Source: Massilia sp. UMI-21 (GTDB lineage: Bacteria > Pseudomonadota > Gammaproteobacteria > Burkholderiales > Burkholderiaceae_D). Taken from it: DNA of 64,000 nucleotides. The stretch's first letter is position 1. The number at the start of each line of letters is the position of its first letter. Made by a program: the position numbers and the translations under genes. The stretch is from positions 3,534,001-3,598,000 of the forward strand of contig CP063848.1 in NCBI GenBank assembly GCA_015277795.1, in the 5' to 3' direction. Under the pieces are notes generated by a model. It searched no databases. It saw nothing but the letters and a program-made list of their open reading frames with translations, and had not been told where the DNA came from. Shown here in pieces: positions 2,075 through 4,858 of this stretch.

Positions 2075-2114
2075 TCTCAACAGCTAAGCGATTGATTTCA
2101 TTGGATATTCCTCA

Positions 2115-2246
2115 ATATCCACAATAACTGTGGATAAAGATGTGGAAAAGCACTACTTGACAAGCCAAAAGTCCAGTAATGATGCGGGTTTCAACACATT
2201 GCCCGTTCCGCAGGCAAATTGAAAATCTCTACAAATCAAGGACTTA
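2115..2246 (+). repeat. DnaA-box-containing intergenic element, copy A
   Basis: This is a 132-bp element matched by copy B at 4614-4745 in the same orientation. It contains three DnaA-box-like 9-mers: ATATCCACA at 2115-2123, TGTGGATAA at 2129-2137 (perfect box on the minus strand) and TGTGGAAAA at 2141-2149. They are followed by TTGACA (2157), TTTCAACA (2189), a hairpin TTGCC-N9-GGCAA (2199-2217) and AAATCAAGGACTTA at the end. Box spacings (0, +14, +26) and hairpin offset (+84) are the same in both copies while the intervening bases differ, so the architecture appears to be under selection. The function is not known to me; DnaA binding is the natural reading. Confidence 0.7.
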
Positions 2247-2341
2247 GCGAAGCATCACTTTCCTATTGTGTGGGGGTGTGGGGCAAATTCCTACAAAAAG
2301 CCGGTGCGGGGGATAAGTCGCCAACATGGTCCGATCTCCCG

Positions 2342-4438
2342 TCATTTCCACGCGTTCCGGGCGCGCTCGCGCACCAGCATGCGCACGCTCTCCGGCACCG
2401 GCTTGCGCAGCTGCGGCGTGTCCGCGCTGAGCCAGGTCGTCTCTTCGAAATGCCTGAGCATGGCCGGCGTGATGAAGCGGCTACGCGAGGCGTACACGTG
2501 GCGATCGCCGGTCGCGGCCTGCTGCTTGATGAAGAAGCGGTTCGGCACCACCAGTTGCAGGTGCTCGCGGGCGCGCGTCATCGCCACGTAGAGCAGGCGC
2601 CGCTCCTCTTCGATATCGTCGTTGTTCCCGGTGCTCATGTCTGACGGGATGCAGCCGTCGACCACGTTCAGCACCGTCACCGACTTCCATTCCTGGCCCT
2701 TGCTCGAATGAATGGTCGACAGGATCACGTAGTCTTCGTCGAGCAGCGGCGCGCCGGCGCGGTCGCTGGTCGCCTCCGGCGGGTCGAGCGTGATCTCGGC
2801 CAGGAAGCTCTCGCGCGTCGCATGGCCGCCGGCAAGCAGCGCCAGTTGCTCGACGTCGGCGGCGCGCACCCCGGCGTCGTCGTACATGCGCTCCAGGTGC
2901 GGCAGGTACCACTGCTTGACCAGTTCGATATCGGCCGGCCAGCGCAGCCCGGGGGTGCGCAGGCGGCGGTACAGCGCACTGAACCCGTCCCAGTCCGCGC
3001 TGCTCCTGGGCGGCGCCGCGAAGGCCTCGACCGCGGCCGCCGGATCGCCGGCCTCGCCCACCGCATCCAGCAGGCGGGTGGCGGTGGCGGGGCCGATGCC
3101 CGGGATCAGCTGGGCCACGCGGAAACCCGCCATGCGCCCGTTCGGGTTCTGGGCAAAGCGCAGCACCGCCAGCACGTCCTTGATGTGGGCCGCCTCCAGG
3201 AACTTCAGGCCGCCGAACTTCACGAAGGGGATGTTGCGCCTCATCAGCTCCAGCTCCAGCGCCGCACTGTGGCTGGCGGCGCGGAACAGCACCGCCTGCG
3301 ATTTCAGGGCAATGCCGGCCTCGCGGTGCTCGAGGATGCGATTGCAGGCCCAGCGCGCCTGTTCGGCCTCGTCGGGAATCAGGACCAGCTGCGGCTTGAG
3401 GCTGGACGGCTTGTCGGTCCATAGAGTCTTGGCGTAACGTTCGCGCGCACCGGCGATGACGGCGTTGGAGGCATCCAGGATCGGCTGGGTCGAACGGTAG
3501 TTGCGCTCCAGGGCGATGACTTCGGCCGCTTGCGTGAACTGTTTCGGGAAGTCGAGGATGTTGCGCACCGTCGCGCCGCGGAAGGCATAGATCGACTGGG
3601 CATCGTCGCCGACCACCATCACGCCCTCGCCACCCGGCTTCATGCCGGTGATGATCGACGCCTGCAGCCGGTTGGTGTCCTGGTACTCGTCGACCAGCAC
3701 ATGGTCGAACAGCGCGCCCAGCTCCGGTCCCAGCTCGGGATCGGCCGCCATCTCGGCCCAGAACAGCAGCAGGTCGTCGTAGTCGAGCACGTTCTGCTCC
3801 TGCTTGGCGTCGACGTAGGCGCCGAACAGGGTCTTCAGTCGTTCTTCCCATTCGCTGCACCATGGGAAGGTCGACTGCAGCACTTCCTGCAGCGGCGCGC
3901 GCGTGTTGACCACTCGCGAGTAGATCGACAGGCAGGTGCCCTTCAGCGGAAACCGTTTTTCGAGCTGCGAGAGGCCGATCTCGTGGCGCACCAGGCCCAT
4001 CAGGTCTTCGGAATCGCCGCGGTCGTGGATGGTGAAGGAGTCGTCCAGGCCGATGCGGCCGGCGTACTCGCGCAGCAGGCGCGCGCCGATGGCGTGGAAG
4101 GTGCCGGCCCAGGGCAGCGCGGCCGGCGCCGCATGGCCGCCGCCGACCCCGCCCGTCCCGAGCAGGCGCTGCAGCACGCCGCCGGCGCGCCGGCCCATTT
4201 CCGCCGCCGCGCGCCGCGAAAAGGTCAGCAGCAGGATGCGCTGCGGATCGGCGCCGGACTGGATCAGGCGCGCCACCCGGTGCGCCAGCGTATTGGTCTT
4301 GCCCGATCCCGCTCCCGCCACCACCAGCAGCGGCCGCACTGTCGGGGCGCCCATGTCGTGCTCGACCGCGGCGCGCTGTTCGGCATTCAGGCCGGCAAAG
4401 GGATCGTCGGTGGCAGGCTGGTCGGGGACGGCGTTCAT
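2342..4438 (-). CDS. UvrD/Rep-family ATP-dependent DNA helicase
   Basis: Superfamily 1A 3'-5' DNA helicase, 698 residues. Seen in order: the Q-motif region LNAEQRAAVEH, Walker A GAGSGKT (42-48), DExx box VDEYQDT (249-255), GDDAQSIYAFRGA (motif III), ERNYRST (motif IV), TIHSSKGQEW (motif V) and LLYVAMTRAR (motif VI). It is somewhat longer than Rep and near the length of UvrD, and too short for RecB. The ATG at 4438 is preferred over the upstream in-frame ATG at 4465, whose ten extra residues look unlike the family. It stands alone and is bracketed by the two DnaA-box elements, which suggests a link to replication-fork repair or restart, though that is inference. It lacks an obvious UvrD C-terminal UvrB-binding tail, so I give no symbol. 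Confidence 0.93.
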   Translation of the reverse strand: MNAVPDQPATDDPFAGLNAEQRAAVEHDMGAPTVRPLLVVAGAGSGKTNTLAHRVARLIQSGADPQRILLLTFSRRAAAEMGRRAGGVLQRLLGTGGVGGGHAAPAALPWAGTFHAIGARLLREYAGRIGLDDSFTIHDRGDSEDLMGLVRHEIGLSQLEKRFPLKGTCLSIYSRVVNTRAPLQEVLQSTFPWCSEWEERLKTLFGAYVDAKQEQNVLDYDDLLLFWAEMAADPELGPELGALFDHVLVDEYQDTNRLQASIITGMKPGGEGVMVVGDDAQSIYAFRGATVRNILDFPKQFTQAAEVIALERNYRSTQPILDASNAVIAGARERYAKTLWTDKPSSLKPQLVLIPDEAEQARWACNRILEHREAGIALKSQAVLFRAASHSAALELELMRRNIPFVKFGGLKFLEAAHIKDVLAVLRFAQNPNGRMAGFRVAQLIPGIGPATATRLLDAVGEAGDPAAAVEAFAAPPRSSADWDGFSALYRRLRTPGLRWPADIELVKQWYLPHLERMYDDAGVRAADVEQLALLAGGHATRESFLAEITLDPPEATSDRAGAPLLDEDYVILSTIHSSKGQEWKSVTVLNVVDGCIPSDMSTGNNDDIEEERRLLYVAMTRAREHLQLVVPNRFFIKQQAATGDRHVYASRSRFITPAMLRHFEETTWLSADTPQLRKPVPESVRMLVRERARNAWK

Positions 4439-4613
4439 GGCTGGCAAAATCGGGAAATGCCACACTGTACATTTATCCAGTTATCTTGCGCAAGCGGGGA
4501 ATCCGGCGGACAAGCAGCCTGCGCCGGCAAGCGACGCCCGGCCTTCTCACGATCGGCTCATGGATTACCTGCAGATGAAGTGCTAAGTCTCTAATAATTA
4601 AAAAGTTTTCCGG

Positions 4614-4745
4614 ATATCCACAAAGTCTGTGAATAACTATGTGGAAAAGCGGGGGCTTGACACGCCGAATGCGGCCATCTGTGCGGCTTTCAACAATTTG
4701 CCTATTGGGAAGGCAATCGCGATAGGCCCGTAAATCAAGGGTTTA
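4614..4745 (+). repeat. DnaA-box-containing intergenic element, copy B
   Basis: This is the second 132-bp copy of the element at 2115-2246. The 9-mers are ATATCCACA at 4614-4622, TGTGAATAA at 4628-4636 (reverse complement TTATTCACA, which fits TTATNCACA) and TGTGGAAAA at 4640-4648. TTGACA follows at 4657, TTTCAACA at 4688, the TTGCC-N9-GGCAA hairpin at 4698-4716, and the element ends AAATCAAGGGTTTA. It lies about 175 bp upstream of the helicase start codon but points away from that gene, so it is unlikely to be the helicase leader. Confidence 0.7.
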
Positions 4746-4776: not shown

Positions 4777-4807
4777 GCACAAAATTATTCTTGAGAAACG
4801 TTTGTGC
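4777..4807. repeat. Inverted repeat GCACAAA / TTTGTGC
   Basis: Perfect 7-bp arms at 4777-4783 and 4801-4807 are separated by 17 bp, just right of copy B and before the stop of the small minus-strand gene at 4859. It could be an operator or a weak hairpin. There is no T-run, so it is not a typical intrinsic terminator. Confidence 0.3.
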
Positions 4808-4858
4808 ATAAGCCCGGCCTGCCTGACCCGCAAGCGTCCCTGCCGGCGTTCTGGCGAA

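Follow-up and report, generated by a model that had tools for sequence, protein, structure and literature searches.

The 64,000-nucleotide window of Massilia sp. UMI-21 analysed here (positions 3,534,001-3,598,000 of a 5,302,561-bp single contig, CP063848.1, whose dnaA domain lies at 391-870) harbors two 132-bp elements on either side of a gene for a UvrD-type helicase, which are probably tandem sites of DnaA control of the DnaA-reactivating sequence (DARS) type that depend on integration host factor (IHF) and help to regenerate ATP-DnaA. Both DARS and datA, another site of this kind of control, are known in detail from Escherichia coli. The support for the assignment consists of the geometry of the DnaA boxes, an IHF consensus in constant phase, conservation, low copy number and the presence in the genome of an IHF-alpha gene that scores above its model cut-off, on which grounds an IHF-dependent, Fis-independent DARS-type site is proposed. 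The elements are likely to be replication-timing sites largely unrelated to the helicase gene between them.

Both copies measure 132 bp if DnaA box I is taken as the left boundary and the IHF-type site as the right one, and 80 of the 132 ungapped positions are identical. A scan with the DnaA box consensus TTWTNCACA revealed a forward box at +0 and reverse boxes at +14 and +26 in each copy (Table 1), which is the arrangement given in a preliminary description of this DNA; the single perfect minus-strand box per copy claimed there corresponds to box II, but box III is also perfect to TTWTNCACA. The TTGACA, TTTCAACA and TTGCC-N9-GGCAA blocks of that description are present in both copies, and the ending that it termed AAATCAAGG-type is present too, although it is to be corrected to the start of a perfect 13-bp IHF consensus (WATCAANNNNTTR) at +119. 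All five perfect TTWTNCACA boxes and all three perfect WATCAANNNNTTR sites of the window are located in or beside the elements, which are intergenic in that no conserved gene covers them, the list of open reading frames being a mechanical one. Inspection by eye showed no suitably spaced -10 hexamer after TTGACA, and a promoter reading of this block was dropped.

Table 1. Features of the two elements, the gene between them and the second locus. Positions refer to the window unless a contig position is named, offsets are counted from DnaA box I, and R1 denotes a sequence-only profile model built from 66 copies.
Feature	Position	Strand	Remarks
Element copy 1 (box triple to IHF-type site)	2115..2246	+	downstream side of helicase gene; R1 102.0 bits
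Copy 1 second perfect IHF consensus, reversed	2085..2097	-	-30 from box I
Copy 1 DnaA box I ATATCCACA	2115..2123	+	1 mismatch to TTWTNCACA
Copy 1 DnaA box II TTATCCACA	2129..2137	-	perfect
Copy 1 DnaA box III TTTTCCACA	2141..2149	-	perfect to TTWTNCACA
Copy 1 conserved TTGACA (+42)	2157..2162	+	sequence conservation
Copy 1 conserved TTTCAACA (+74)	2189..2196	+	opens IHF-like 13-mer with 1 mismatch
Copy 1 TTGCC-N9-GGCAA dyad (+84)	2199..2217	.	read from sequence
Copy 1 perfect IHF consensus AATCAAGGACTTA	2234..2246	+	+119 from box I
UvrD/PcrA-like helicase gene, 698 aa	2342..4438	-	Pfam UvrD-helicase 200.8 bits
Element copy 2 (box triple to IHF-type site)	4614..4745	+	upstream side of helicase gene; R1 101.5 bits
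Copy 2 DnaA box I ATATCCACA	4614..4622	+	1 mismatch
Copy 2 DnaA box II TTATTCACA	4628..4636	-	perfect
Copy 2 DnaA box III TTTTCCACA	4640..4648	-	perfect
Copy 2 conserved TTGACA (+43)	4657..4662	+	sequence conservation
Copy 2 conserved TTTCAACA (+74)	4688..4695	+	sequence conservation
Copy 2 TTGCC-N9-GGCAA dyad (+84)	4698..4716	.	read from sequence
Copy 2 perfect IHF consensus AATCAAGGGTTTA	4733..4745	+	+119 from box I
Extra perfect DnaA box TTATGCACA past copy 2	4803..4811	-	+189 of copy 2
Array of about seven IHF-DnaA units (L134 6281-7340)	contig ~1,794,280-1,795,340		one intergenic region; box-triple scan

That such a pair did not arise by chance, as had been asserted, was borne out by the pattern ATGTGGAAAAGCN{3,9}TTGACA, which matched the window twice and not one of 100 shuffles. 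A shortened pattern has exactly two matches in the whole genome, namely the two elements bracketing the helicase gene, for which no other close match exists in this genome. The box triple, allowed up to three mismatches, was recovered at five places genome-wide, comprising the two elements with one mismatch each and three places in one other locus, while its reversed form, used as a control, was recovered at none.

The bioD-uvrB (L071) and rppH-mutH (L072) regions of E. coli K-12, which we take to contain DARS1 and DARS2, respectively, were scanned for DnaA boxes. The boxes of DARS1 were located at 2108 (forward), 2122 (reverse) and 2134 (reverse), and those of DARS2 at 1136 (forward), 1150 (reverse) and 1162 (reverse), so that orientations and offsets of 0, +14 and +26 are shared by all four sites; uvrB and mutH are themselves mentioned in PMC6090056. 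Both Massilia elements therefore display the DARS core, in which boxes I and II stand head-to-head, an arrangement described as the DARS hallmark (PMC10380432), and box III lies beside box II. They also resemble DARS in being intergenic and few per genome (two close matches), and resemble DARS2 in carrying an IHF consensus at a fixed distance from the core. In the DARS2 region, IHF sites with one mismatch were found forward at +109 and reversed at +93, which presumably correspond to the published IBS1-2; the Massilia site at +119 is on the same strand as the former and one helical turn away from it. Further DnaA boxes follow downstream in both systems, whereas the Massilia elements differ from DARS2 in forming two copies about 2.5 kb apart and in adding the TTGACA and TTTCAACA blocks. 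DARS1 shares the box triple and is matched by R1 at E 1.6e-5, and no IHF consensus within one mismatch was found in it.

By analogy with these sites, DnaA molecules bound to boxes I and II would face each other with a further DnaA on box III beside box II, and IHF, bound 119 bp from box I on a constant helical face, would bend the DNA. The completed complex would strip ADP from DnaA, which could then rebind ATP and allow replication to start; binding of DnaA and IHF, bending and nucleotide exchange at the Massilia elements are all predicted from sequence. In E. coli, ADP-DnaA molecules on boxes I and II meet head-to-head through their AAA+ domains and box III is stimulatory, and at DARS2 the complex is completed by IHF and Fis, upon which ADP is released and the resulting apo-DnaA binds ATP (PMC10380432, PMC8682772 and PMC4245941). 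When the IHF sites of DARS2 were shifted 10 bp away from the core, moderate activity remained (PMC4245941).

Within the Massilia group, a short exact pattern was searched for in 101 genomes, 61 of which belong to the genus, and was present in 40, comprising the genome of origin, 37 further members of its genus and two genomes from elsewhere; the match in one of these outsiders (G063, L003) is not element-like. The pattern is absent from 23 of the 61 genus genomes, of which the one checked with R1 (G045) gave two matches. Thirty-five regions, all picked by exact match (the window and those of 34 of the 37 matching relatives), were compared, and two copies in the same orientation were present in every one. 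Over these 70 copies, the box triple shows one mismatch in 66, two in three and three in one, and 57 have a perfect IHF consensus at +118 to +120, with eight more having one with a single mismatch (65/70 at up to one mismatch).

The two copies are not interchangeable. In a midpoint-rooted tree, from which the most divergent region (L065) was left out, the copy-2 sequences form one clade (34/34, support 0.909) and the copy-1 sequences form none. A reversed IHF site at -30 (up to one mismatch) accompanies 35/35 copy-1 and 5/35 copy-2 sequences, and a perfect reversed DnaA box at about +180 to +209 was found in 24/35 copy-2 and 0/35 copy-1 sequences. Because of this clade and the unequal distribution of these sites, copy 2 is regarded, from the sequence comparison, as an old lineage of its own, the two copies carrying different accessory sites. 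After copy 1, at about 2287-2314 of the window, there is also a conserved ATTCCTACAAAA followed by GGGGGAT, which is seen in most copy-1 regions and not in L037 or L065.

Beyond the genus, R1 matched 140 of 145 genomes of the family at E <= 0.001, covering 44/44 genera, and among the matches listed there are close pairs of copies 0.4 to 3.4 kb apart, for example in G145, G196, G222, G233, G147 and G168. A profile scan had been proposed in the preliminary description, which hundreds of random, unspaced copies would have refuted; instead, close copies proved few and their spacing strongly conserved. In the order, 203/300 genomes and 103/134 genera were matched, mostly with weak scores and with rough E-values owing to a shortened calibration. 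The box geometry with up to two mismatches was found in 202/274 genomes of the class (167/222 genera), counted wherever the matches lie, possible origins included, as against 0/274 both for the reversed pattern and for a spacing altered to +16/+30. As R1 itself contains the IHF site, IHF matches in sets selected with it are not independent. The 28 class loci listed from outside the order were picked by boxes alone (19 families, not all independent). Among them, an IHF site with up to one mismatch lies at +117 to +122 in 14/28 loci and 10/19 families, versus 0.17 expected, and two further loci carry one at +108 to +111 (+109/+110). Three of the 28 (L146, L148 and L164, from three families) have a perfect reversed IHF site whose offset from box I is precisely +52, versus 0.003 expected. 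The TTGACA and TTTCAACA blocks are absent from most matches in other families.

On the chromosome, the element pair is located 1.77 Mb from dnaA in a genome of 5.30 Mb, about two thirds of the way to the far point. Unlike oriC, the elements lie outside the dnaA region (L069, L070), in which neither R1 (up to E 10) nor the box triple (within five mismatches) gave a match. The distance of the pair from dnaA amounts to 0.64-0.70 of the half chromosome in five of six genus genomes and to 0.26 in the other, and the values worked out by hand for G027 and G007 are about 0.68 and 0.48. Seven equal-scoring 265-aa frames with weak Bac_DnaA matches (39.6 bits) were also observed, at contig positions 156439, 796501, 1327195, 2772190, 2844956, 3343394 and 4116851; we take them to belong to a repeated insertion element, probably as its ATP-binding proteins.

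The other locus recovered by the box triple is the array of Table 1, which is flanked by genes that, judged from their translations, we take to resemble xseA and exbB/tolQ. Its units, about seven in number, carry the triple with two to five mismatches, and a reversed IHF site stands at +52 in six of the seven (three perfect, three with one mismatch); each of the three perfect IHF sites is located 42 bp before a box. The array units share with the 132-bp elements the triple geometry and a positionally fixed IHF site, which is reversed at +52 in the former and forward at +119 in the latter. The three class loci L146, L148 and L164 have their reversed IHF site at the same place as the array units. 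The unit pattern, an IHF site followed by a TTNTCCACA box, occurs in 61/61 genus genomes with two to six exact matches each and in 1/40 others, and its reversed control gave no match; among the matches listed, most of those of the unit lie in clusters, and isolated single ones occur in G019 and G029.

Both loci could be placed on one large contig in six genomes. In five of these (G000, G012, G033, G052 and G059), the array and the element pair occupy different chromosome arms and are almost equally far from dnaA, the distances of the two loci being 1.767/1.794, 2.004/1.951, 1.924/1.932, 1.950/1.859 and 2.007/2.006 Mb; the sixth, G043, has the two on a single arm, at 0.797 and 0.469 Mb. Since all six genomes are relatives and three (G012, G033 and G052) are in two to three contigs, this placement may be a single inherited arrangement. 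The array is possibly a datA-like counterpart of the pair. As a broader speculation, which we regard with considerable doubt, the box triple with phased IHF would be an ancient nucleotide-switch module of DnaA that spans the class (Gammaproteobacteria, beta included) in two forms that differ in where IHF binds (about +119/+110 in forward orientation, or reversed at +52), and Massilia would carry both, the tandem pair and the array on opposite arms, nearly equally distant from oriC, possibly acting as an on/off pair with balanced copy numbers. If this were true, the two replication forks would pass pair and array together, and the on and off copy numbers would stay balanced.

Several observations weigh against the assignment of the 132-bp elements to the DARS type. 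DARS2 needs Fis, whose sites FBS2-3 adjoin its IHF sites, and no Fis consensus was found at a shared offset in the 35 + 35 copies, because of which the elements are not classed as DARS2 proper. R1 gave only a partial, opposite-strand match to the DARS2 core (E 0.87), and a similarity to DARS1 outside the boxes was rejected, as none was left once the boxes were masked. The IHF site is missing in 5/35 copy-2 sequences, which account for all five site-less copies, and an IHF site at +117 to +122 is likewise lacking in half of the 28 class loci. Shifting the DARS2 IHF sites 5 bp away from the core, or 5 or 10 bp towards it, left partial activity (PMC4245941), so that the evidence for phase taken from DARS2 is soft. 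The relative distance of E. coli DARS from oriC is conserved, according to PMC4585315; a conserved chromosomal position across the family is not supported for the present elements, whose relative distances from dnaA, worked out by hand, range from about 0.01 to about 0.90 in 15 genomes of other genera. Moreover, since the triple geometry recurs in the array with another IHF position, geometry alone may not specify reactivation.

Among the other explanations, it is unlikely that the pair itself is datA-like, in which case IHF-bound DnaA assemblies would speed ATP hydrolysis by DnaA and switch initiation off. In favor of it, datA is likewise made of DnaA boxes and an IHF site (PMC8682772), and strong boxes could bind either nucleotide form of DnaA. 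The preliminary description was well guided in pointing to datA and DARS, of which DARS is the one that fits in geometry: the core geometry is identical to that of DARS, with boxes I and II in the head-to-head order that characterizes it (PMC10380432), but in the E. coli datA region (L135) five mismatches have to be allowed before the triple appears, and its perfect IHF site (3810) stands between separated boxes (3745 and 3907), an order and spacing unlike those of the Massilia elements. Furthermore, datA is proximal to oriC (PMC8682772), which the elements, about two thirds of the way to the far point, are not. Passive titration, in which the sites merely soak up DnaA, would suit strong, clustered boxes in a window that has no perfect box elsewhere, yet it requires neither a fixed 14/26 spacing nor an IHF site in fixed phase, both of which are conserved; it is considered a little less likely still.

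A regulatory role for the elements, coupling the helicase to DnaA as was previously suggested, is very unlikely. It is true that the gene is enclosed by the pair in 34 of the 35 regions, as is its orthologue in G168 of another genus, and that copy 2 lies upstream of the gene start in the window; copy 1, however, is downstream of the gene. Both elements are kept in G016, where the helicase gene is gone and the copy starts are 529 bp apart. A close orthologue (71-100%) was present in four of 12 genomes searched and absent from eight, every one of which has the element (G016, G048 and six genomes from other genera); the copies of G048 are 346 bp apart, and in G145 the orthologue and the element pair are on different contigs. 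Given the loss of the gene from between the two elements in G016, and its absence from the six element-bearing genomes of other genera, the helicase is an incidental neighbor, neither part nor partner of the site. Its product reaches the cut-off of none of the NCBIfam models listed. By eye against the window, an apparent scar of the helicase 3' end is seen between the intact elements of G016 (L037 4850-5650), and in L049 and L065 the spacing of the copies leaves room for about 1 kb of additional DNA.

A structured RNA or a dispersed repeat is scarcely credible: TTGCC-N9-GGCAA could fold, and of five covariation measures one, that of pairs with changes on both sides, was matched by only 23/500 shuffles, but the hairpin proposed as a transcript was rejected, with no Rfam match, three of the five dyad pairs never varying and the other four measures not rarely reached by shuffles (the covariation score by 83/500, the percentage paired by 282/500), while two close genome copies and a single copy-2 clade (34/34) in the genus are an unlikely look for a mobile repeat.

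DARS-like sequences are known from many proteobacterial species (review PMC10380432). The DARS2 core has been described as specific to gamma-proteobacteria related to E. coli (PMC4245941); the sections available of PMC3937223 and PMC6090056 name, besides the E. coli sites, DARS-like sequences of Vibrio cholerae and no beta-proteobacterial ones, and those of PMC13220808 name only the E. coli sites and state that Bacillus subtilis lacks them. No description of DARS in beta-proteobacteria was found in the open-licence literature. Against the known spread of DARS-like sequences across proteobacteria, what appears to be new here is a putative tandem, IHF-phased pair of the DARS type without recognisable Fis sites. 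Such a family-wide, IHF-phased tandem version that lacks Fis sites would make it simple to test which components of DARS are the active ones, and the box geometry together with the IHF phase would offer a sequence rule for seeking sites of this kind in many species.

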